This document shows positions 14,191-34,622 of a stretch of DNA of 37,126 nt, in pieces. The stretch lies in NCBI GenBank assembly GCA_902571315.1, contig CACGBM010000005.1, positions 1 to 37,126 on the forward strand. The letters are read 5' to 3'. The notes under the pieces are model-generated. The model ran no database searches. It had not been told where the DNA came from and saw only the letters and a list, made by a program, of their open reading frames with translations. This stretch comes from Rhodospirillaceae bacterium (GTDB taxonomy: Bacteria; Pseudomonadota; Alphaproteobacteria; TMED109). The translations under genes and the position numbers were made by a program. The first letter of the stretch is position 1. The number at the start of each line of letters is the position of its first letter.

Positions 14191-14253
14191 TAGAATATAT
14201 TAATTTCATAATAAAAAAAATCAAATTAAACTTTAATGCTTTGCATATTTACA

Positions 14254-14259
14254 TATAAT
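14254..14259 (+). promoter_or_regulatory. TATAAT -10 hexamer, probable ssrA promoter
   Basis: A consensus TATAAT lies about 12 bases before a likely RNA start near 14266, just ahead of the tmRNA acceptor piece. The -35 region 16-18 bases upstream is only weakly recognisable (CTTTAA/TTTAAT). The 90-base space between thyX and ssrA (14191-14280) holds nothing else that I can recognise. Confidence 0.5.
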
Positions 14260-14284
14260 AGTATTGTTATTTATTTAACTATGA

Positions 14285-14560
14285 CGATAAACGGTGCGTG
14301 TAATAGGCGAACTGGACCCGGGGGCGGTACCCGGCGCCTCCACCACAGGGGGGCGAAATAGGATCGACAGGCGTTGAAAAGCGTAACTTTTCGTTCGGTA
14401 TTGTTCCACCGCAAAGGACAAAATTATAAATGCAAACGACAATAGTCGTGAGGTTGCATTAGCAGCGTAGAGCTGTTAATTTAACTGTGCAGTAAACTCC
14501 TAATTTGGTCACACATTTTAGGCGGGGTTTGAAGGCACCTGGCAACAGAAGCCTTCAAAA
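14285..14560 (+). ncRNA. ssrA: Circularly permuted (two-piece) transfer-messenger RNA
   Basis: Rescues stalled ribosomes by adding a degradation tag. The order is permuted. The acceptor piece comes first, with T-arm CCGGG-GGCGGTA-CCCGG, acceptor strand CGCCTCC and encoded ACCA (14342-14345). The 5' strand of the acceptor stem, GGGGGCG, follows at once and pairs fully with CGCCTCC, then the GATCGACAGGC typical of tmRNA 5' ends. The tag frame begins with GCA at 14432 and stops with TAG at 14468-14470, encoding ANDNSREVALAA. It has the ANDN start and ALAA end seen in alphaproteobacterial tags, recognised by SspB and ClpX respectively. Downstream helices include AAACTCC/GGGGTTT and TTTGAAGGC/GCCTTCAAA (14528-14559). 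Outer ends are approximate. This is the classic alphaproteobacterial two-piece arrangement; cleavage between the pieces is inferred. Confidence 0.95.
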
Positions 14561-25555: not shown

Positions 25556-26281
25556 TTAAACTATTAATTTTCCAGCCATGAAAAGCTTACCTTCTTTTGA
25601 CTTAGGTTTTAAAAAGAATAATTTGGCAGTCGTATGCTCACATATACGTCCTTTATTAATAAAAATGATATCATTAGCTAGTCTTTTAGCCTGTAATAAA
25701 TCATGAGTAACTGCTATTACTTTAGTCCCATATTTATTAACTTCTTTAATAATTTTTTCTATAATTTGAATGGAATAAGGATCCAGATTAGACGTTGCTT
25801 CATCTAAAAAAAGAACTTTTGGTAAAGTTGAAATTGCTCTCGCAAGACATAATCTTTGTTTCTCTCCACCAGACAAAAGTATAGCATTCTGATTAACTAA
25901 ATGTAATAAATCTACCCTTTTTAAAACTTTCAATATTTTTTCCTTATTAATTATTTTAGTTCTCTGTTGTAAAGCAAATGAAATATTTTTTAAAACAGAC
26001 CTTCTTAATAATATAGGAGATTGAAAAACCATAGATTGTTGTTTTCTGATAGTTTTATTTAAGGATTTATTTGCAAAAGTAATTTCAGAAATGCTATCAC
26101 TTATTAATCCATGTAAACATTTTAAAAATAAAGTTTTGCCAGCACCATTTGGACCTAAAATAATTGTGATACCTTGCGCTTTAATTTCACAAGAAATATC
26201 ACTAAGTAATTTTCTATGTCCTTTTTCAAAGTTTAGCTTCTTTACTTTTATAGGCATTAAAGTATTTTTTTTACCTACCAT
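25556..26281 (-). CDS. tupC: Tungstate ABC transporter ATP-binding protein
   Basis: ABC ATPase with Walker A LGPNGAGKT (about residues 38-46), Q-loop MVFQSPILLRRSV (about 78-90), signature LLSGGEKQRLCLARAI (about 134-149) and Walker B KVLFLDEATSNLD (about 154-166), followed by the H-loop histidine in VIAVTHDLLQAKRLA. The 241 residues show no C-terminal molybdate-binding TOBE domain, in keeping with TupC rather than ModC. It overlaps the tupB end by 11 bases, and the tupA ATG follows its stop after two bases, so the order is tupB-tupC-tupA. Confidence 0.9.
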   Translation of the reverse strand: MVGKKNTLMPIKVKKLNFEKGHRKLLSDISCEIKAQGITIILGPNGAGKTLFLKCLHGLISDSISEITFANKSLNKTIRKQQSMVFQSPILLRRSVLKNISFALQQRTKIINKEKILKVLKRVDLLHLVNQNAILLSGGEKQRLCLARAISTLPKVLFLDEATSNLDPYSIQIIEKIIKEVNKYGTKVIAVTHDLLQAKRLANDIIFINKGRICEHTTAKLFFLKPKSKEGKLFMAGKLIV

Positions 26282-26981
26282 AATACTGGTCCTTAATGTT
26301 ATATTTTTTATAAGTAACTATTAGGTTTATGGTAATAGAGGTAATTAGAAGTATAATTCCCAAAGCTAGTGCTAAAGAAAGCTCACCTTTTGAGGTTTCC
26401 ATAGCAATAGTAGTTGTCATTACTCTGGTAAGATGATCTATATTTCCTCCAACAATTATTACAGCTCCTACTTCAGAGACTCCTTTTGCAAGACCAGCTA
26501 AAACAACAGTAATTAGTGAATATCTTGCATCTATAATATAAGCTTTAATTGTAGTAACTTTGGGTGTGACTAAAGAAATAAATAAATCATTATAATTCTC
26601 TTGTAGATCCTCAATAATTTGTGTTGTTAAACCTGCAATAATAGGCAGAATTAATATAATTTGTGCTATAATCATTGCAGTAGGAGTATAAAGAATTCCT
26701 AACCAACCGAAAGGTCCAGACCTAGACAAATTAATATAAACAAATAGACCCACAACTACAGGTGGTAAAGACATTAAGGAATTAATTATACCTATAAAGA
26801 GACTTCTCCCCTTAAATCTCTGAGTAGCCAAAAAAGTGCCTAATGGTAAGCCAATCAGACATGAAATAAATAATGCTATTATGGTTACTTTAAAAGATAA
26901 GAAAAAGACCTCTATAAGTTTTTTATCAAAGCTAACTATTAAATTTATAGCAGTAAAAATTGAATCCCAGTAAATGCCCAT
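26271..26981 (-). CDS. tupB: Tungstate ABC transporter permease
   Basis: A 236-residue inner membrane permease with five to six hydrophobic helices. It has the binding-protein-dependent permease (EAA-type) region EDLQENYNDLFISLVTPKVT, and VLAGLAKGVSEVGAVIIVGGNIDHLTRVMTTTIAMET, in pieces, matches TupB-type permeases. SLMSLPPVVVGLFVYINLSRSGPFGWLGILYTPTAMIIAQ, in pieces, is also characteristic. The substrate tungstate is assigned through the TupA-type binding protein downstream, since the permease alone could not separate tungstate from molybdate. It starts 46 bases after the membrane PD-(D/E)XK-like gene. Confidence 0.9.
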   Translation of the reverse strand: MGIYWDSIFTAINLIVSFDKKLIEVFFLSFKVTIIALFISCLIGLPLGTFLATQRFKGRSLFIGIINSLMSLPPVVVGLFVYINLSRSGPFGWLGILYTPTAMIIAQIILILPIIAGLTTQIIEDLQENYNDLFISLVTPKVTTIKAYIIDARYSLITVVLAGLAKGVSEVGAVIIVGGNIDHLTRVMTTTIAMETSKGELSLALALGIILLITSITINLIVTYKKYNIKDQYYGR

Positions 26982-27949: not shown

Positions 27950-28456
27950 TTAAGTAAATTCTCTTATTGATCTAATATTTAAATAATGTGCACCTAGTAA
28001 AATTAAACCACCTAATACTGTAAATATAGTTTCAAGTGTCTCTCCAATGCCTCCATGCTCATGATGTCCGTGTTCAGCTTCCTCATGGTGAGTAGCCTCT
28101 CCATGTCCAGCTTCCTCATGATGAGTAGCCTCTCCATGTCCAATATGACTCTCCGAACCAAAGTTAATATCATGCATGAAGATTGCAATCACAAGAGAGG
28201 ATAAACCTATAACAGCTAAGCTTATGCACTTATAATTATGATGTATCCTTAAAGACTTTGCCATTGCAAATAAACTAATTGGAACTGCAAATAATACTAA
28301 TATTACATGTACTTTTTCATTATTTATCCATAAAGATGCGAAACTAGGAATCATTAATATAATTGCTGGCAAAGCAATACAATGTAATATACAGCAAAGT
28401 GAAAGACATATAGATAGTTTATCGCTAAATTGTTTTTTCGCTTGTGTAAAATTCAT
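27950..28456 (-). CDS. MerC-domain inner membrane protein with His-rich insert
   Basis: 168 residues. The first half follows MerC: DKLSICLSLCCILHCIALPA with the cysteine pair and a third Cys in the first membrane helix, then two to three further helices (KVHVILVLFAVPISLFAM; ISLAVIGLSSLVIAIFMH). Between helices lies a stretch of about 30 residues almost entirely His, Glu, Gly and Ala (HGEATHHEEA repeated, then EHGHHEHGG), before a last helix (IFTVLGGLILLGAHYLNI). MerC proteins move mercury, but the His-rich loop and the location in a Zur-type locus point to zinc (inference). It lies 19 bases after the porin-like gene on the same strand and is followed by an intrinsic terminator. Confidence 0.85.
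   Translation of the reverse strand: MNFTQAKKQFSDKLSICLSLCCILHCIALPAIILMIPSFASLWINNEKVHVILVLFAVPISLFAMAKSLRIHHNYKCISLAVIGLSSLVIAIFMHDINFGSESHIGHGEATHHEEAGHGEATHHEEAEHGHHEHGGIGETLETIFTVLGGLILLGAHYLNIRSIREFT
28075..28140. repeat. 33-base tandem repeat encoding a His-rich metal-binding segment
   Basis: Two adjacent 33-base copies (28075-28107 and 28108-28140) differ at a single base (28088 against 28121). On the minus strand they encode HGEATHHEEAG and HGEATHHEEAE. In-frame copy number could change the number of histidines without breaking the gene. Confidence 0.9.
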
Positions 28457-28475
28457 AATTATTCCTCCTTAAATT

Positions 28476-29813
28476 TTAATGATCATGTCCCTCATGTCCG
28501 CCAGAACCTAAATACATAATGTATTGAAAAATAATTTGATTATCCACCATTTCAGCTTGAGGTGTCTCATGGTTAAGTTGTAATCTCACAACCGATGCAG
28601 AATCAAATTTCCATTCTGACATAACAGAATGCGTTTCAGGATCATTACCTCCTGAGTCTAATGCACTACCAACAAGCCCAGTGGGGGCATCAGCAGGTAC
28701 TAATTTACCATATCTATAACCCAGACTTAAGTGATCATTAAATTGATTTACTAAAGCTAAATAATAACCACTATCATTATCGTCAAAAGCTATGTTTCCA
28801 GTAGATTCTTCACTGTCTGCAAAGGTACCATCCTGATTCCTATAAAAGTATTCAGTACTAATTTTAAATTTCTGATTAGAACTATATGAATTTTCATAAT
28901 CTAAATTAATAATAGATAAATCACTATCTCCACTAAATGTTACAGTGTCTTCATTACCTAATCTTGCATTAGGAGATTTTGATTTTCCTGATAAATGATA
29001 CAAATTAAAAGAAAGTTCCTCAGTATTTGAAATATTTAAATTAGATTTGTAAAAGGCTGACCAAGCATCACTTCCAGTTCCCTCACTGCCTGCTGTATTA
29101 CCAAATGGAAAATCTTCTCCTCTAAAAATACCAAAACCTATTTCTGTTGATCCAAATAAATATGAAACTTCTAAACCATCATCATTATAAGCCTTGTTTA
29201 AAAAAACTCTGTAAGGTAATGGTCTATCTGCAAAATCATCAGCGTGAGCATGCTGTGGATTAAGAGCAGCTACATTCCAAAAAGCCCTACCAAGTTTAAA
29301 AAAAGTATTATCCAAAAAGCTACCATCTAGACTTTCCACATATGCTTCTTCTAATTCTATTTTATCTGCTCCGTCTTCTCTAACTATAGCAGCAGTAAGA
29401 GACCCACTAAATTTTTCACCTATATCTGAATTAATTATTAACTCAGATTCTCCAATGTATAATCCTTCTCTTCCTCTTTCACCCTCATGTGCAGTTCCAA
29501 AACCTTTAGGTTCTACTTCTCCACTTCTAGTGAAAGAAGTATATTTTCCATTTAATACGGCCTCTATATTAAAGCTGCTTTCTTCAGATTGAGCATCATG
29601 CTCATCATGGTGATCAGCTGCTTTAGTCTCTTGCTTTAACTTTTCATTCTCTAATTTTTCTATTTTCGCTTCTAAAGCTTCAATTTTATTTTCATAAATT
29701 TCTTTAATCTGATTAAATTCATTTCTTAAGTCAGATACTTCTTTATTTATATCGGCACTTAAATTTTTTATAAAAAAAATGCTGATAAAAAAAACCACGT
29801 AAAATTTGATCAT
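28476..29813 (-). CDS. Porin-like outer membrane protein with coiled coil and His-rich ends (probably zinc-linked)
   Basis: 445 residues with a signal peptide (MIKFYVVFFISIFFIKNLSA). A coiled coil (about 25-66, LRNEFNQIKEIYENKIEALE and onward) of the type that trimerises porins is followed by ADHHDEHDAQ. Next come many alternating strands with aromatic girdles and D/G/N-rich turns (for example YYLALVNQFNDHLSLGYRYG). The C-terminus has FQYIMYLG, where a terminal aromatic is expected, then a His-rich tail GSGGHEGHDH. No TonB box or plug domain is visible, so passive or facilitated entry is more likely than TonB-driven transport. It is divergent from zur across the palindrome and co-directional with the MerC-like gene. 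A role in zinc passage is inferred from position and histidines. Confidence 0.8.
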   Translation of the reverse strand: MIKFYVVFFISIFFIKNLSADINKEVSDLRNEFNQIKEIYENKIEALEAKIEKLENEKLKQETKAADHHDEHDAQSEESSFNIEAVLNGKYTSFTRSGEVEPKGFGTAHEGERGREGLYIGESELIINSDIGEKFSGSLTAAIVREDGADKIELEEAYVESLDGSFLDNTFFKLGRAFWNVAALNPQHAHADDFADRPLPYRVFLNKAYNDDGLEVSYLFGSTEIGFGIFRGEDFPFGNTAGSEGTGSDAWSAFYKSNLNISNTEELSFNLYHLSGKSKSPNARLGNEDTVTFSGDSDLSIINLDYENSYSSNQKFKISTEYFYRNQDGTFADSEESTGNIAFDDNDSGYYLALVNQFNDHLSLGYRYGKLVPADAPTGLVGSALDSGGNDPETHSVMSEWKFDSASVVRLQLNHETPQAEMVDNQIIFQYIMYLGSGGHEGHDH

Positions 29814-29865
29814 ATCTCTTCCCTTTTTTAAATTATCAAAGCCTAAGTGAGTTTAAGCTAAGTGT

Positions 29866-29917
29866 TAAATATCATTTTTGAAATATTATTGCAATAATGT
29901 CAATAATATATTGATAT
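29866..29917. promoter_or_regulatory. Divergent promoter pair with candidate Zur box
   Basis: A perfect 14-base palindrome ATTATTGCAATAAT (29885-29898) contains TTGCAA, which can act as -35 on both strands. Rightward, TTGCAA, 17 bases and TGATAT (29912-29917) would drive zur. Leftward, TTGCAA, 17 bases and TATTTA (29866-29871) would drive the porin-like gene. A second inverted repeat TCAATA-ATA-TATTGA lies at 29900-29914. A dimeric regulator on the palindrome would shut both directions. Zur of other proteobacteria binds AT-rich palindromes of this kind; the exact sequence here is a prediction. The rest of 29814-29944 is T/A-rich with no gene. Confidence 0.6.
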
Positions 29918-29944
29918 ATTTTTTTTTTATATTATTTTTAAAAG

Positions 29945-30379
29945 ATGAGAAGAATAAATACTGAAAATCTTCTAAGTTATTGTCTAAAGCGTAAAAAAAC
30001 TTTAACTGCATCCAGAACTTTAGTTATAAAAACGTTATCAAGGCGTAAAAAACCAATATCTGCATATGAATTAAGAGATATGATTAATAAAGATCGAGAT
30101 GTTAAAATAAATATTTCACAAATATACAGAGTTTTAGAGTTTTGGATTGATTTAGGACTAATTCATAAAATTTCTTCAATTAATAAATTTTTGCTCTGCA
30201 CTACACCAGATGAAAAACATACTCATATGTTGAATTTTTGCACTGTTTGTGAAAAAGTTTTTGAAACATGTAATAAAAAAATGGGGTTAAACTTTAGAAA
30301 AAGCACAGCTAAACTGAATCTTGCTTTCAATGATACTCGCTCTATAGAAATACCTGTAATTTGTCCGAAGTGTAGTTGA
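29945..30379 (+). CDS. zur: Zinc uptake regulator Zur (Fur family)
   Basis: 144-residue Fur-family repressor. The winged-helix domain covers about residues 1-85, with SAYELRDMINKDRDVKINISQIYRVLEFWIDLGLIHKI in pieces; YRVLEFWIDLGLIH is closer to Zur (YRALDFL-GLIH) than to ferric Fur. The dimerisation domain has KHTHMLNFCTVCEKVFETC and a C-terminal CPKC, four cysteines that form the structural zinc site. With zinc bound, the family represses uptake genes. It sits first in a rightward operon of zinc-type transport genes and divergent from the porin-like gene. The stop overlaps the next ATG by one base (TGATG). Zur rather than Fur or Mur is supported chiefly by the neighbours. Confidence 0.88.
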   Translation: MRRINTENLLSYCLKRKKTLTASRTLVIKTLSRRKKPISAYELRDMINKDRDVKINISQIYRVLEFWIDLGLIHKISSINKFLLCTTPDEKHTHMLNFCTVCEKVFETCNKKMGLNFRKSTAKLNLAFNDTRSIEIPVICPKCS

Positions 30380-30747
30380 TGGAACATTTATTAGAACATT
30401 ACCTTTATGGCTTTTCAGCTAATTTAAGAGGGTTTGTGTTTGGTTTTTTTCATGCTGCGATCATGATCTTAGGGTACTACACAGGTTGGAGTATAAATAG
30501 ATTCCTAAAAATAATTTCTAATGGATATATCGCAGGTATTTTTGGTGCTGCTTTATCTCATGTAGTAGCAGATGTTATAGCAAGTTTTTTAGATCCTCAT
30601 ATTAGAAAAATGGTTTTAGGAATAGTATTAGGAGGAATTGTTCCCTTGTTTTTTATTCCTTTACTTGAAAAGTATGTTGTAAAGAGCAAAAACCATATTG
30701 TTACTGGAGATCATGAAGATATAAAAAAAGATTTAAAAAGCCATTAA
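30379..30747 (+). CDS. Small multi-spanning membrane protein in the zur operon
   Basis: 122 residues from the ATG at 30379 (a TTG one codon earlier is less likely). Three hydrophobic helices are visible: GFVFGFFHAAIMILGYYTGW, YIAGIFGAALSHVVADVIASF and MVLGIVLGGIVPLFFIPLLE. Histidines and acidic residues sit in or near the helices (HAAIM, SHVVADV, DPH), possibly for metal coordination. The termini are MEHLLEHYLYG and a charged tail KNHIVTGDHEDIKKDLKSH. I do not recognise a family. Translational coupling to zur and the zrgA-like gene 22 bases downstream make a role in zinc handling likely. Confidence 0.75.
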   Translation: MEHLLEHYLYGFSANLRGFVFGFFHAAIMILGYYTGWSINRFLKIISNGYIAGIFGAALSHVVADVIASFLDPHIRKMVLGIVLGGIVPLFFIPLLEKYVVKSKNHIVTGDHEDIKKDLKSH

Positions 30748-30769
30748 AATAATATAAAGGAGAATTTAA

Positions 30770-31339
30770 ATGAAATTTTTTATTGGATTACTATTAATGA
30801 TTAGCCTTCACAGTTTTGCCGAAGATGACCATCATAGTCATGATCATGGTCATGACCACACTAGTGAAGAAAATTCCAAGAAAGATAAAAAACCTCTGGA
30901 TGCGCATGTACATGGTGTCAGTATTCTTAATTTTGTGCAAGATATGGAAAAGTTATCATTTGAATTTGAGATGCCAGGTTTCGACGTAGTTGGCTTTGAA
31001 CATAAAGCAAAGAAAAAGGAAGATATTAAAAAAGTTAGAAATGCATTAAACATACTATCTGATTATAAGAATATGATTAAAATGGCTGCTAGCGCTAACT
31101 GTAAAGAGGAAAAGACCTCGGCAAAGGTAATTAATGAAGGTTCTCATTCAGAATTTATAAGTCAATATTTATTAAGTTGTGAAAAAATATCCTTAATTAA
31201 AGATATTCAAATTATATATTTTGACAGTTTTCCATTTAGTAAAGAACTTAATATAAACTTAGTGACTAAAAATAAAAAATTATCTCAGATTACTGATAAA
31301 AAAAATAGTATAATTAATGTGGAAGGTTACCTTAATTAA
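30770..31339 (+). CDS. zrgA: ZrgA-like (DUF2796) periplasmic His-rich zinc protein
   Basis: 189 residues. A signal peptide (MKFFIGLLLMISLHSFA) is followed by a histidine cluster (EDDHHSHDHGHDHTSEE) and then the DUF2796 core: DAHVHGVSILNFVQDMEKLS and FEFEMPGFDVVGFEHKAK (about residues 43-80), an alpha segment, and beta-strands with two cysteines (Cys103 region in AASANCKEE and SCEKISLIK). DUF2796/ZrgA was described in the Vibrio zinc-regulated gene set, where it works with a MacB-like ABC pair and a DUF3299 protein; the same set follows here. GGAGAATTTAA precedes the ATG. It probably binds periplasmic zinc, but it is unrelated to the ZnuA cluster of binding proteins. Confidence 0.88.
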   Translation: MKFFIGLLLMISLHSFAEDDHHSHDHGHDHTSEENSKKDKKPLDAHVHGVSILNFVQDMEKLSFEFEMPGFDVVGFEHKAKKKEDIKKVRNALNILSDYKNMIKMAASANCKEEKTSAKVINEGSHSEFISQYLLSCEKISLIKDIQIIYFDSFPFSKELNINLVTKNKKLSQITDKKNSIINVEGYLN

Positions 31340-31344
31340 GTTAA

Positions 31345-32040
31345 ATGTATAATGCTTTAGAAATAAATGATTTATTTTTCAAATGGGAAAATAAGGAATC
31401 ATTTAAATTAAAAATAACAAAGCTAGAAATAGAAAATAAAAAAAAAATTGTTATCTTTGGTAAAAGTGGATCAGGAAAATCAACATTACTAAATTTAATA
31501 AGTGGTATTTTGTCCCCTTTAAAAGGTAGTTTAAATATCAATAATATTGATATAACCAAGTTATCTCAAAAAAAAAAAGATGAGTTTAGAGCTAATAATA
31601 TTGGTGTAATATTTCAACAATTTAATATTTTAGATTATATATCTCCTTTGCAAAATATTTTATTGCCTTGTTTTTTTACTAAATTTAAGAAGTATGATAA
31701 ACTGTATTTTTATGATAGAGCTTTTAATTTAGCTCAAAAAATAGATATAAATAAAAATATCTTACTACAAAATAATTCAAAAAATTTATCTGTGGGACAG
31801 AAACAGAGAATAGCAATTTTAAGGGCTATAATTAATAAACCATTTTTAATTCTTGCAGATGAAGCAACATCAGCTCTTGATGACAAAAATAAAAAAGATT
31901 TCATTAACCTTCTAATGAACTTATGTGATGAAGAAAAAGTCACTTTGCTAATGGTAAGTCATGACACTTCATTAAAAAAGAATTTTGATGATTTTATTAA
32001 TTTAGAAAAAATTTTAATCAGAAATGAAAATATTAATTAA
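31345..32040 (+). CDS. ABC transporter ATP-binding protein, LolD/MacB type, of the zinc locus
   Basis: 231 residues. Walker A GKSGSGKST (about residues 38-46), Q-loop VIFQQFNILDYISPLQNILLP in pieces (about 89-109), signature NLSVGQKQRIAILRAI (about 147-162, SVGQ in place of SGGQ), Walker B FLILADEATSALD and the H-loop LLMVSHD. ATPases of this subfamily work with FtsX/MacB permeases in type VII ABC systems, and such a permease follows with a 17-base overlap. It starts 5 bases after zrgA. In the Vibrio Zrg system the corresponding ATPase is needed for zinc uptake. Confidence 0.9.
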   Translation: MYNALEINDLFFKWENKESFKLKITKLEIENKKKIVIFGKSGSGKSTLLNLISGILSPLKGSLNINNIDITKLSQKKKDEFRANNIGVIFQQFNILDYISPLQNILLPCFFTKFKKYDKLYFYDRAFNLAQKIDINKNILLQNNSKNLSVGQKQRIAILRAIINKPFLILADEATSALDDKNKKDFINLLMNLCDEEKVTLLMVSHDTSLKKNFDDFINLEKILIRNENIN

Positions 32041-33271
32041 TATTGCTTTTCAATCTTTATTAAATAGAAAAGTTACAGTTATTTTAACAATAATTTCATT
32101 AACAATATCTATAGTCTTATTTCTTTCAATAGATACATTAAGATTAGGAGCAAAAAAAAGTTTCTTTGGTAATGTAAAATCAGGAGATTTGATCTTAGGA
32201 GCTAGGTCTGGAGAAATTCAGTTATTACTTTATTCTTTATTTCAAATTGGTAGTCCTACTAATAATATTAGTTGGGAAAGTTATAAAGAAATCTCAAAAA
32301 AACCTGAAGTAGATTGGATCATACCTATATCTTTAGGTGATAGTCATAAACAATTTAGAGTAATGGGTACCACACAAAATTATTTTGAAAAATTTTCTTA
32401 TCGAAAAGATCAAAAGTTACTGTTCAAATCTGGAACATATTTTCGAAGCACCTTTGATGTTGTAATAGGAAGCGATGTAGCCAAAATATTAAATTATAAA
32501 TTAGAAGATGATATTATTATTGCTCATGGTATAGCATCACAATCTTTGCATGATGAATTTCCATTTAAAATTAAAGGTATTTTAAAAAAGACTGGAACGT
32601 CAACAGATAAATTGGTTCTAGTTAGTCTTGAAGCATTAGAAGCCATTCATAAAGATTGGAAAACTGGATCAAAGTTACCTTCTAAAATTAAAAATAAAGA
32701 AAAAGAAATTAAAAATTTTGATTTAACTCCCAAAGAGCTAACTGCAGCAGTAATAAAGTTAAAGTCTCCAATTAGTATATTTAAAATACAAAGAGAAATT
32801 AATGATTACCAAGAAGAGTCTTTACAAGCAATCATACCAGGAATTGTACTTACTAAACTATGGCAGATAGTATCTATAACCGAAAATATAATGTTATCAA
32901 TATCGAGTATGGTTATTGTAAGTGCTATCTTAGGTATGATTGCAATATTATATTCTAATCTCAATAATAGAAGAAAAGAAATGGCACTTCTTAGAATAGT
33001 AGGTGCTTCCCCTAAAAATATTTTTACTTTAATGATGGTTGAAGCATTCTTGATATCTTTTTTTAGTATTATATTTGCTATTGTTATAGTTCAGATATCT
33101 AGCTTTATTTTTTTTCCGATATTAGATAGACAATTCGGTATTTTTTTAGAACAGAAAATATGGAATGCTAGAAATTTATATTTTTTAAATTTAGTTTTGA
33201 TTTCTTCATTATTAGTAAGTATATTTCCAAGTATTCAAGCTTTTAGAAAATCTATTAATGATGGTATTTAA
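32024..33271 (+). CDS. FtsX/MacB-type ABC permease of the zinc locus
   Basis: 415 residues: an N-terminal membrane helix (VTVILTIISLTISIVLFLSI, about residues 18-37), a large periplasmic MacB-like domain (about 45-275, with SGDLILGARSGEIQLLLYSLF and VDWIIPISLGDSHKQFRVMG in pieces), then three C-terminal helices of the FtsX domain (ISSMVIVSAILGMIAILYSN; FLISFFSIIFAIVIVQISSF; LYFLNLVLISSLLVSIFPSI). The coupling region NNRRKEMALLRIVGASPKNIF between the helices is diagnostic. Such proteins usually transmit force or expel substrates rather than import them, which makes the zinc context mechanistically interesting. It overlaps both neighbours by 14-17 bases. Confidence 0.9.
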   Translation: MKILINIAFQSLLNRKVTVILTIISLTISIVLFLSIDTLRLGAKKSFFGNVKSGDLILGARSGEIQLLLYSLFQIGSPTNNISWESYKEISKKPEVDWIIPISLGDSHKQFRVMGTTQNYFEKFSYRKDQKLLFKSGTYFRSTFDVVIGSDVAKILNYKLEDDIIIAHGIASQSLHDEFPFKIKGILKKTGTSTDKLVLVSLEALEAIHKDWKTGSKLPSKIKNKEKEIKNFDLTPKELTAAVIKLKSPISIFKIQREINDYQEESLQAIIPGIVLTKLWQIVSITENIMLSISSMVIVSAILGMIAILYSNLNNRRKEMALLRIVGASPKNIFTLMMVEAFLISFFSIIFAIVIVQISSFIFFPILDRQFGIFLEQKIWNARNLYFLNLVLISSLLVSIFPSIQAFRKSINDGI

Positions 33272-33809
33272 AGTGCAATTAGTTTTTAAATTTTTTTTTC
33301 AATGTTTAGTAATATTCTTATTAGTTTTAAACAATGTTTCGAGCGATGATAGTTTAAGGTTAAAGTGGTTTGAGTTAGTTCCAAAATTTGCTTATGATTT
33401 TGTTCCTGAGTCTGGAGTGACTGAAGAAATGTGGGAAGATGAAGTATTTTTACAAAAGGTAGAAAAGGCAGGCCTTTTAATAAATGATGAAGTAGTAGGA
33501 AAAAAAATTCAAATAGACGGGTTTATGGTACCTCTAGAGTTTGACTATGTCGAAGGTTTAACTGTAGAAGAGTTTGTCTTGGTTCCTGATGCAGGAATGT
33601 GCATACATGTACCTCCTCCTCCTCCAAACCAAATGATTTTTGTTAAACTAAAAAAACCTGAAAAAGTTAGGTTCATGTACCAGCCAATTCTTATTGAAGG
33701 TGTTTTAAAAAAAACTACTCCTATAAAAGATGTCTATAATAGTATTTATGAGGTTTCTGCAGAGAGTATAAGAGATATAGATATGGAAGACTTATATTAT
33801 GAAGATTAG
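33258..33809 (+). CDS. DUF3299 secreted/periplasmic protein of the zinc locus
   Basis: 183 residues with a signal peptide (VQLVFKFFFQCLVIFLLVLNNVSS). The conserved DUF3299 core runs QIDGFMVPLEFDYVEGLTVE, EFVLVPDAGMCIHVPPPP and PNQMIFVKL (about residues 82-130), with one Cys and one His in the CIHVPPPPPNQ motif. The N-terminal part (LRLKWFELVPKFAYDF) matches the usual W-L-P segment. The biochemical role is unknown. In Vibrio a protein of this family belongs to the zrg gene set. The start overlaps the permease by 14 bases. Confidence 0.88.
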   Translation: MMVFKVQLVFKFFFQCLVIFLLVLNNVSSDDSLRLKWFELVPKFAYDFVPESGVTEEMWEDEVFLQKVEKAGLLINDEVVGKKIQIDGFMVPLEFDYVEGLTVEEFVLVPDAGMCIHVPPPPPNQMIFVKLKKPEKVRFMYQPILIEGVLKKTTPIKDVYNSIYEVSAESIRDIDMEDLYYED

Positions 33810-33818
33810 GATAAAAAA

Positions 33819-34622
33819 ATGCTAAAGCAAGCTAACGATTTTTATGAGGAGTCTAAAGATATACACTATATTTTAAAAAATATTTCTGAAGATAAGCTAA
33901 ACACTCCTACACAATTTAAGAGTTGGTCTTTCACTGATATAATTAGGCATCTTCATGTTTGGAACATTGCTGCTTATAAGTCTCTTCAGGGTAAGAGTGA
34001 GTGGGAAAAATTTAATAATGAGTTACAGTTTTTTTTTAAGAATAAAAAGAAATTAAGTGATTTTGAAAAAAATTTTACTGAAAATATAAATGGAAAAGAA
34101 TTAATTGATATATGGCAAAATACCTTTAAAGAAGTTTCCAAAATATTTAGTAAAGAGGACGCTAAAAAAAGAGTTAAATGGGTAGGACCAGATATGAGCG
34201 TAATTTCATCAATAAGTGCCAGACATATGGAAACTTGGGCACATTCACAAGCAATATATGACTCTCTAGGCAAAATAAGAAAAAATAAAGATAGAATATT
34301 AAATATAGTTATAATAGGAAATAATACTTTTGATTGGACTTATAAAGTCAATAACAAAGAAATACCAATTAAAAAACCTTATTTAAAGCTAATTGCACCT
34401 TCTGGAAAGATATGGGAATTTAATGATCATGAAAATTCAAATAAAATAGAGGGATTGGCCGAAGAATTTTGCCAAGTTGTAACACAAGTAAGAAATATTA
34501 AAGATGTAGATTTAAAGTTAAATGGAAAAACTTCCACTGAATGGATGTCAATTGCACAGTGCTTTGCTGGCAAGGCATCCTCTCCTCCACTGCCTGGAAC
34601 TAGAAAGTGTATAACAGAATAA
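33819..34622 (+). CDS. TIGR03084-like putative metal-dependent protein (DinB-like fold)
   Basis: 267 residues. The N-terminal half is a four-helix DinB/maleylpyruvate-isomerase-type bundle with SWSFTDIIRHLHVWNIAAYKS (His44, His46) and ISARHMETWAHSQAIYD (His136, Glu138, His142), which could bind a divalent metal. The C-terminal half (about 165-267) has FDWTYKVNNKEIPIKKPYLK, LIAPSGKIWEFND and DLKLNGKTSTEWMSIAQCFAG, matching the conserved tail of the TIGR03084 family. The function is unestablished. It follows the DUF3299 gene by 9 bases and seems to be the last gene of the zur operon, so a zinc-dependent or zinc-sparing role is possible. Confidence 0.8.
   Translation: MLKQANDFYEESKDIHYILKNISEDKLNTPTQFKSWSFTDIIRHLHVWNIAAYKSLQGKSEWEKFNNELQFFFKNKKKLSDFEKNFTENINGKELIDIWQNTFKEVSKIFSKEDAKKRVKWVGPDMSVISSISARHMETWAHSQAIYDSLGKIRKNKDRILNIVIIGNNTFDWTYKVNNKEIPIKKPYLKLIAPSGKIWEFNDHENSNKIEGLAEEFCQVVTQVRNIKDVDLKLNGKTSTEWMSIAQCFAGKASSPPLPGTRKCITE

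Follow-up and report, generated by a model that had tools for sequence, protein, structure and literature searches.

A divergent gene block with a Zrg core

The window, by which we mean the whole 37,126-nt stretch of DNA that was analyzed, contains all nine of the open reading frames from which an earlier note had proposed a zinc island at 27950-34622. A MerC-like gene and a porin gene point leftward. The rightward genes are zur, a gene for a small membrane protein, zrgA, a LolD-like ATPase, a MacB-type permease, DUF3299, and TIGR03084. Neighbors in the rightward run either overlap or are separated by about 5-25 bp, so we read them as operon-like: zur and the small-protein gene overlap at 30379, the ATPase and permease genes at 32024-32040, and the permease and DUF3299 genes at 33258-33271. 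The divergent block is kept in the window's genus (G003 and G004) and in a sister genus (G010, G014, G017, and G020), which argues that the arrangement is not due to chance. The island is conserved whole across these two sister genera of marine Alphaproteobacteria.

The core of the block is a Zrg system, as the earlier note had recognized by comparison with Vibrio (PMC9820375; PMC9817125). ZrgA (30770..31339, plus strand) is a periplasmic zinc-binding protein with a His-rich N-terminus. It matches PF10986 at 97.1 bits (curated cut-off 27.4), and it is similar to the PDB entries 8ezw (E = 3.4e-15) and 7ahw (E = 1.3e-6); it did not reach the cut-off of the NCBIfam equivalog for ZrgA (106.7 versus 185). 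In a pairwise alignment, it keeps the site-1 ligands as assigned in PMC9820375, namely H46 and H48 (HxH) and E77 (GFEH), as well as the disulfide C111/C137. The same operon encodes a LolD/MacB-type ABC ATPase (31345..32040, plus strand; the ZrgC counterpart), a MacB/FtsX-type permease (32024..33271, plus strand; the ZrgB counterpart), and a periplasmic DUF3299 protein (33258..33809, plus strand; the counterpart of ZrgE and PA4066). The ATPase matches PF00005 (ABC_tran) at 100 bits, and its best match in NCBIfam is LolD, below the cut-off. The DUF3299 protein matches PF11736 at 97.3 bits and the structure of PA4066 (4hsp) with E = 1e-15. None of the island's proteins matched ZrgD (DUF2607). ZrgD is also absent from some Vibrionaceae (PMC9817125), so we do not consider it essential to the definition of a Zrg system.

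The last gene (33819..34622, plus strand) matches TIGR03084 (DinB/maleylpyruvate isomerase-like) at 261.7 bits, above the NCBIfam cut-off of 247.95. The earlier note had included it in the zinc run, and this was not supported: adjacency to the island is confined to the window's genus. Four genes separate the TIGR03084 gene from the island in the sister genus; in G010, the gene is not near the island; and the zrg clusters of other groups have no TIGR03084 gene nearby. Because of this pattern, the gene is probably a passenger at the operon's end and not part of the system.

The product of zur (29945..30379, plus strand) is a Zur-type member of the Fur family (PF01475, 32.8 bits) that did not reach the cut-off of NCBIfam's Zur equivalog (69 versus 167 bits). 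A palindromic candidate operator, TGAAATATTATTGCA (29879..29893), lies between the porin and zur genes. It differs from the family pattern TGCAATANTATTGCA at one position, and no other site in the window comes within two mismatches. Seven members of the lineage share the operator in their divergent regions, and the pattern is present in 13 of 15 genomes from the family, while a control with the reversed pattern gave zero. The operator also precedes DUF1826 genes, the second zrgA of G010, and, in the same and related genomes, genes or operons for CobW GTPases; these COG0523 GTPases are common targets of Zur (PMC6103462). A Fur-family regulator and an operator common to the island and the CobW genes support the predicted control of the island by Zur.

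The porin and the standard zinc importers

The porin gene (28476..29813, minus strand) encodes a protein of 445 amino acids with a signal peptide and a coiled coil, which AlphaFold2 models as a 16-strand barrel (pLDDT 83.1). The relatives of this model, as found by Foldseek, are OprP, DcaP, VhChiP, and OmpC. The protein had no family match in Pfam or NCBIfam, and a sequence search of the PDB gave no credible relative. We also looked for a plug domain or a Pfam match to TonB receptors and found none; nor does the barrel have the 22 strands of a receptor. In an alignment of 53 sequences, an HxHxDD motif (H188, H190, D192, and D193) is invariant, and it lies in the loop that joins strand 5 to strand 6. 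ZnuA is encoded directly downstream of the porin in 70 of 80 homologous loci, from several phyla, and these loci usually encode the ABC-3 permease as well. Given the model, the alignment, and these neighbors, the protein is probably an outer-membrane zinc porin, with HxHxDD as a candidate selectivity motif.

The earlier note had described the porin as an extension of the Zrg system. It does seem to be the outer-membrane component of the island, but it is not specific to Zrg. Most of its homologs are found away from zrg genes, because the usual partners are ZnuA and the ABC-3 permease, so the association fails the note's own test of co-occurrence, though the porin is almost always beside genes for a zinc importer. 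Only the window's lineage has a Zrg system in ZnuA's place beside the porin, without ZnuA; two other loci (L231 and L241) contain the porin and both systems. In this lineage, the Zrg core occupies the position that ZnuA and the ABC-3 permease have beside this porin in other bacteria.

In Vibrio campbellii (L338), a homolog of the porin directly precedes ZnuA and the ABC-3 permease. From the gene order and the species, this homolog appears to be the omr of omr-znuAII-znuBII (PMC9817125); the window lacks omr's ZnuA and ABC-3 partners. In V. parahaemolyticus, zinc limitation induces the zrg and omr-znuAII-znuBII genes by 76- to 1034-fold (PMC9817125). Omr was described as a TonB-dependent receptor, whereas the model of its homolog in the window is a 16-strand porin. 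This family of probable zinc porins is widespread; it has apparently been named as a TonB receptor in Vibrio and is unnamed elsewhere.

The standard zinc importers appear to have been lost from the lineage. As the earlier note observed, there is no znuABC in the window, and this absence extends further: we did not detect ZnuA or the ABC-3 permease in any of ten genomes from the two genera (the window's own genome, G000, and nine relatives), and no protein in these genera matched ZIP above the cut-off. These genomes are incomplete (the window's is 54% complete, and the others include genomes at 97% and 91%), but if a gene were universally present, the naive probability of not seeing it in any of the ten would be 6e-7. 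The search covered ZnuA, ABC-3, and ZIP among the possible zinc importers, which also include Nramp transporters, P-type ATPases, and TonB receptors. ABC ATPases are too alike to single out the ZnuC that serves an ABC-3 permease. Within this scope, Zrg is the only recognized system for zinc uptake in the two genera.

Two inner-membrane proteins

The MerC-like protein (27950..28456, minus strand) has a His-rich loop and matches PF03203 at 74.7 bits (cut-off 27.6). MerC is a family of inner-membrane proteins for metal uptake. The gene adjoins the porin gene in seven loci from this lineage (L188-L194), and further loci (L231, L241, L304, L313, L317, and L324) also have a MerC-like gene in the neighborhood of zur, CobW, or zrg genes. 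A search of the literature turned up no specific paper on MerC in Zur regulons. The family match, together with the MerR-, HMA-, and MerT-like genes that follow DUF3299 in the sister genus, could indicate that the island detoxifies mercury or excess zinc. We consider this very improbable: the island contains neither merR nor merA, which encodes mercuric reductase; in the window's own genus, the island lacks the MerR-, HMA-, and MerT-like genes; and the operator is shared with CobW genes, which are typical of zinc starvation. Instead, the MerC-like protein is a candidate for the path of zinc through the inner membrane or for an accessory protein.

The small membrane protein (30379..30747, plus strand; 122 amino acids) does not match any family in Pfam or NCBIfam. 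Its gene likely starts with the ATG at 30379, rather than with the TTG at 30376 in the list of reading frames. The alignment shows conserved H25, H61, D65, and D72, with histidine and aspartate in hydrophobic stretches. The protein is absent from zrg loci outside this lineage, and its homologs elsewhere adjoin a Fur-family gene (L129), CobW genes (L132 and L133), or a TonB receptor (L130), so it is sometimes linked to zinc in other genomes. We considered two more distant relationships. First, 10 of 12 members have weak similarity to MntP, below the threshold, which we treat as a lead only. Second, a match to ZIP in G004 (6e-7) runs through a stop codon into the His-rich start of zrgA, so we attribute it to composition; a match to ZIP at 0.0018 was seen in 1 of the 12 members.

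A type VII ABC pair and the direction of transport

The permease has both of the domains of MacB exporters (MacB_PCD, 45.7 bits, and FtsX, 45 bits) and a LolD-like ATPase, as in MacB, LolCDE, and FtsX (type VII ABC transporters). In contrast to those systems, the ATPase is a separate chain (there is no fusion of the two genes), the operon does not contain genes for MacA or TolC, and the permease has periplasmic histidines of its own: H168, H176, and H209 are invariant in 47 of 47 zinc-linked MacB-type permeases and are found in 0 of 23 control permeases with MacB_PCD. These histidines are specific to the subfamily. The AlphaFold2 model of the permease (pLDDT 50.2) is too poor to place them in space. 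Permease trees do not favor either vertical loss or horizontal exchange of the Zrg genes within the family: one tree gave a branch with support of 98/96, but with long branches removed, the support was 49 and the AU test gave P = 0.356.

We judge it somewhat probable that this is a Zur-repressed zinc-acquisition island that reaches from the outer membrane to the cytoplasm, by way of the porin, ZrgA, the MacB-type pair, and the DUF3299 protein. The specificity for zinc, the direction, the order of hand-over, and the inner-membrane pore that we infer are as follows. Zinc would enter through the porin, where HxHxDD in a pore-narrowing loop would favor Zn2+, and ZrgA would bind it on the periplasmic side. 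Driven by the LolD-like ATPase and the MacB-type permease, zinc would then be handed over towards the cytoplasm, passing from site 1 of ZrgA to a histidine site (H168/H176/H209) in the periplasmic domain of the permease, with help from the DUF3299 protein. The permease dimer might itself carry out translocation, or a partner from the island (the MerC-like or small membrane protein) might do so. Part of the earlier note's interpretation survives in this proposal (the zinc island, the Zur control, the Zrg core, the outer-membrane component, and the lack of ZnuABC), but not the porin as a Zrg-specific part or the membership of TIGR03084.

Type VII ABC transporters work by mechanotransmission. In a variant of the proposal above, the pair would spend ATP on stripping or loading periplasmic zinc, and a separate pore would move it across the inner membrane: the MerC-like or small protein here, and the ABC-3 permease in another genus (g5). 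In g5, the ATPase-permease pair is found with ZnuA, DUF3299, and an ABC-3 permease, but neither ZrgA nor a second, ZnuC-like ATPase is encoded alongside. The uptake role of the MerC family and the small protein's His/Asp residues and slight MntP likeness fit this idea. However, MerC-like genes are in only some zrg loci, the small protein is in none outside the lineage, and most ABC-3 operons lack a MacB pair. We view this variant as possible but unlikely.

To our knowledge, MacB-type pairs are mechanotransmitters for export or extraction, not importers. Another alternative is that the pair exports a metal complex or metallophore during zinc starvation while some unrecognized transporter imports zinc. 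Besides the MacB_PCD and FtsX fold, this is favored by work on Pseudomonas aeruginosa, where PA4063-PA4066, which shares the four core families of the island and their order (PMC8561739; PMC11481552), was assigned to the export of cobalt-pyochelin: mutants in PA4065 accumulate cobalt in a pyochelin-dependent manner, and its predicted structure matches MacB (PMC11481552). However, P. aeruginosa also has ZnuABC and pseudopaline, whereas no recognized alternative importer was found in the window's lineage, which keeps Zrg without ZnuA or ABC-3. Also, the outer-membrane partner is a plugless porin rather than a metallophore receptor, ZrgA retains its zinc site, the operon lacks MacA and TolC, and the genetics of Vibrio point to zinc acquisition: V. 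cholerae that has lost znuA requires zrgA to grow when zinc is limiting (PMC9820375), and the zrg genes of V. parahaemolyticus are among those induced by zinc limitation (PMC9817125). Overall, we consider export to be quite unlikely at this locus. The earlier note asked how a type VII pair could serve import, and the question is indeed disputed; but it had already been raised (PMC9820375) and, for P. aeruginosa, answered as export (PMC11481552). The direction and mechanism of Zrg/PA4063-66 are in dispute, with import proposed in Vibrio and export in Pseudomonas.

Compared to ZrgABCDE of V. cholerae and V. parahaemolyticus (PMC9820375; PMC9817125), the island likewise has the ZrgA site-1 ligands and disulfide cysteines, the ATPase, the MacB-type permease, DUF3299, and Zur-type control; it differs in lacking ZrgD, in adding the porin, the MerC-like protein, and another small membrane protein, and in belonging to a lineage without detected ZnuABC.

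Our tentative, more specific suggestion, which we rate a little below an even chance, is that in this marine lineage the type VII pair took over zinc import from ZnuABC, with zinc passing from the porin to ZrgA, to the permease's histidine site, and to the cytoplasm, alone or via the MerC-like or small protein. Against the island as a zinc-acquisition system we counted the export or extraction role of type VII pairs, the assignment in P. aeruginosa, the Zur score below its cut-off, and the incomplete genomes. If the suggestion is true, then, as far as we know, no lineage before this one has been shown to rely on a mechanotransmission ABC pair for importing a nutrient metal. The species studied so far also carry ZnuABC, so a lineage that combines Zrg as the sole recognized system with a conserved, probable zinc porin makes a natural case for import, and the subfamily-specific histidines make the question of type VII zinc uptake testable by mutation. 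The locus is a variation on the known Zrg system, and its lineage is a good one for learning how this pump works.

The island and its host genome

The open reading frames and families that the earlier note assigned to the island (27950 to 34622 in the window) were confirmed, and the rightward genes, from zur to TIGR03084, overlap or almost abut. The source genome is alphaproteobacterial, 1.03 Mb, and 54% complete; the window also contains a permuted tmRNA gene of the alphaproteobacterial type (14228 to 14559). The closest relatives are marine single-cell or metagenome genomes (AG-919-G06, AG-919-A04, AG-390-K05, SP81, NP101, and TMED93) that are labeled "Rhodospirillaceae," "Candidatus Pelagibacterales," and similar. 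The entire block is kept in two genomes from the window's genus, g1 (G003 and G004), and in four from the sister genus, g6 (G010, G014, G017, and G020). The island copy of zrgA was not found in three other g1 genomes (G001, G002, and G005), which can be explained by their incompleteness (57 to 67% complete). The island is real and conserved and, on strong comparative evidence, zinc regulated. Elsewhere in the window (25556 to 26981), a TupB-like ABC permease and ATPase, with NF038017 above its cutoff and the TupB model below its own, might be an oxyanion importer.

The porin and the exchange of ZnuA/ABC-3 for Zrg

The proposal that the porin is an extension of the Zrg system was not borne out: a gene for ZnuA (PF01297) lies immediately 3' of the porin in 70 of 80 homologous loci, with a median gap of 10 bp. 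These loci are from named genomes of Alphaproteobacteria, Gammaproteobacteria, Desulfobulbaceae, Dadabacteria, Verrucomicrobia, and others. Seven of the 10 exceptions are from the window's lineage; in the others, ZnuA is elsewhere in the locus (L241), the ZnuA match overlaps the porin frame (L265), or the contig ends (L242). Vibrio campbellii and Sulfurovum have the same porin-ZnuA order. Example operons of porin, ZnuA, and the ABC-3 permease (PF00950) among the porin loci (named as the set L188 to L267) are L105:6259-9280 and L339:4261-7148. No ABC ATPase was found within 6 kb of such operons in 61 of 64 loci. In Vibrio parahaemolyticus, zinc limitation induces the omr-znuAII-znuBII operon 283- to 1,034-fold (PMC9817125); this cluster has been reported for V. 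campbellii as well. We infer that omr of V. campbellii, although named as a TonB-dependent receptor, belongs to the window's porin family.

An AlphaFold2 model of the porin has 16 strands (pLDDT of 83) and is similar to OprP, DcaP, VhChiP, and OmpC. Conservation in the family peaks around HxHxDDF, which the alignment and the model place in the loop that joins strand 5 to strand 6. In classical porins, this is L3, the pore-narrowing loop, and we infer a candidate zinc-selecting constriction.

A single family of genomes shows three arrangements around the porin. G006 has zur, porin, ZnuA, and ABC-3. Genus g5 (MarineAlpha9_Bin3, TMED109, and others) has zur, the LolD-like ATPase, the MacB-type permease, porin, ZnuA, the ABC-3 permease, and DUF3299, without ZrgA. 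The window's lineage (g1 and g6) has the porin with ZrgA, ATPase, permease, and DUF3299, without ZnuA or ABC-3. All components, including the MerC-like gene, occur together in L231 (AG-404-I19) and L241 (Burkholderiales AH-141-I18).

Neither PF01297 nor PF00950 had a match in any of the six g1 or four g6 genomes, including ones that are 97% and 91% complete; most control genomes and the genera g2, g5, and g8 had matches. The naive chance of missing a universally present gene across all ten genomes is 6e-7. ZIP had no match over the cutoff in g1 or g6 either. Thus, Zrg is the sole recognized zinc uptake system of this lineage, in a search that took in ZnuA, ABC-3, and ZIP. Permease trees did not choose between loss and transfer as the route of the exchange.

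Zur-type operators and accessory genes

The region between porin and zur contains a conserved palindrome, TGCAATANTATTGCA, in seven members of the lineage. When at most one mismatch is allowed, 13 of 15 genomes in the family contain it, each at 1 to 4 places, while the reversed pattern had zero sites in the same search. The window's copy differs from the pattern at one position, and no other site in the 37 kb comes within two mismatches of it. The operator also precedes a DsrE-like gene and a CobW G3E GTPase in five genomes (G000, the window's own, on contig 47; G001; G003; G014; and G017), is immediately upstream of CobW in G013, adjoins DUF1826-like genes, and in G010 lies upstream of a second zrgA that stands alone. 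COG0523 GTPases are repeated targets of Zur (PMC6103462). The few single-mismatch sites within unrelated coding genes look like chance occurrences. No site was found near the solitary second zrgA of the window's genome. The island's regulator scored under the curated cutoff for Zur, so its name is based on context. The DsrE-like protein (125 amino acids; L171:2167-2544 and L174:3041-3418) stands under a Zur-type operator, ahead of the CobW GTPase, in several family genomes.

At several loci (L231, L241, L304, L313, L317, and L324), a MerC-like gene has zur, CobW, or zrg genes in its vicinity, and it is therefore plausible that the MerC-like protein serves as an accessory or as a pore. The small membrane protein is kept in small-genome Alphaproteobacteria (11 of 289 genomes of the class). 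Outside the lineage, its neighbors include a Fur-family gene (L129), CobW genes (L132 and L133), and a TonB receptor (L130); the neighbors at the remaining six loci have no evident link to zinc. TIGR03084 touches the operon in g1 only: in the sister genus it is four genes away in three of four genomes and is not nearby in the fourth, G010. In the sister genus (L032:10972-12819), a set of MerR-, HMA-, and MerT-like genes lies between DUF3299 and TIGR03084.

ZrgA, the permease, and the direction of transport

The window's ZrgA retains the site-1 ligands and disulfide cysteines of Vibrio cholerae ZrgA, and its DUF3299 protein matches the structure (4hsp) of PA4066 from Pseudomonas aeruginosa. Across the phylum, 27 of 40 DUF3299 loci include the ATPase-permease pair, and 23 of those 27 include zrgA. 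The window's genome also has a solitary second zrgA beside a peroxiredoxin-like gene, without ATPase or permease (L002:1336-1935; G000:C12:16919-17332), and solitary copies occur in relatives G002, G003, G010, and G014.

All 47 zinc-linked permeases have D55, D106, H168, H176, D195, and H209, and 43 of them have H108 (numbered as in the window's protein). These residues are all in the periplasmic domain between membrane segments one and two. The same genomes also encode 23 MacB_PCD permeases outside this set, none of which has histidine at 168, 176, or 209, as judged from the most frequent letters listed; D195 is common to both groups. The simplest reading is that these residues form a candidate metal site specific to the subfamily. 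The g5 permeases have a long His-rich insert in the periplasmic domain, just past H168 (L138:2813-4207, L225:6169-7521, and L238:240-1664), as if the zinc-gathering stretch of ZrgA, which is missing from the g5 locus, had been relocated into the permease.

Zinc starvation genetics in Vibrio favors a role in acquisition (PMC9820375, PMC9817125), but the MacB pair of P. aeruginosa has been argued to export cobalt-pyochelin (PMC11481552). In the window's lineage, the outer membrane partner is a porin without a plug, and ZnuA and ABC-3 are absent; both points favor inward movement. The ATPase-permease pair likely serves import, or the inward handover of zinc.

The island is mostly assembled from already known parts. 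As far as we could find, three points are new: Zrg has been exchanged for ZnuA/ABC-3 next to a probable zinc porin that both arrangements share, the permease histidines are specific to their subfamily, and the small membrane protein is linked to zinc genes.
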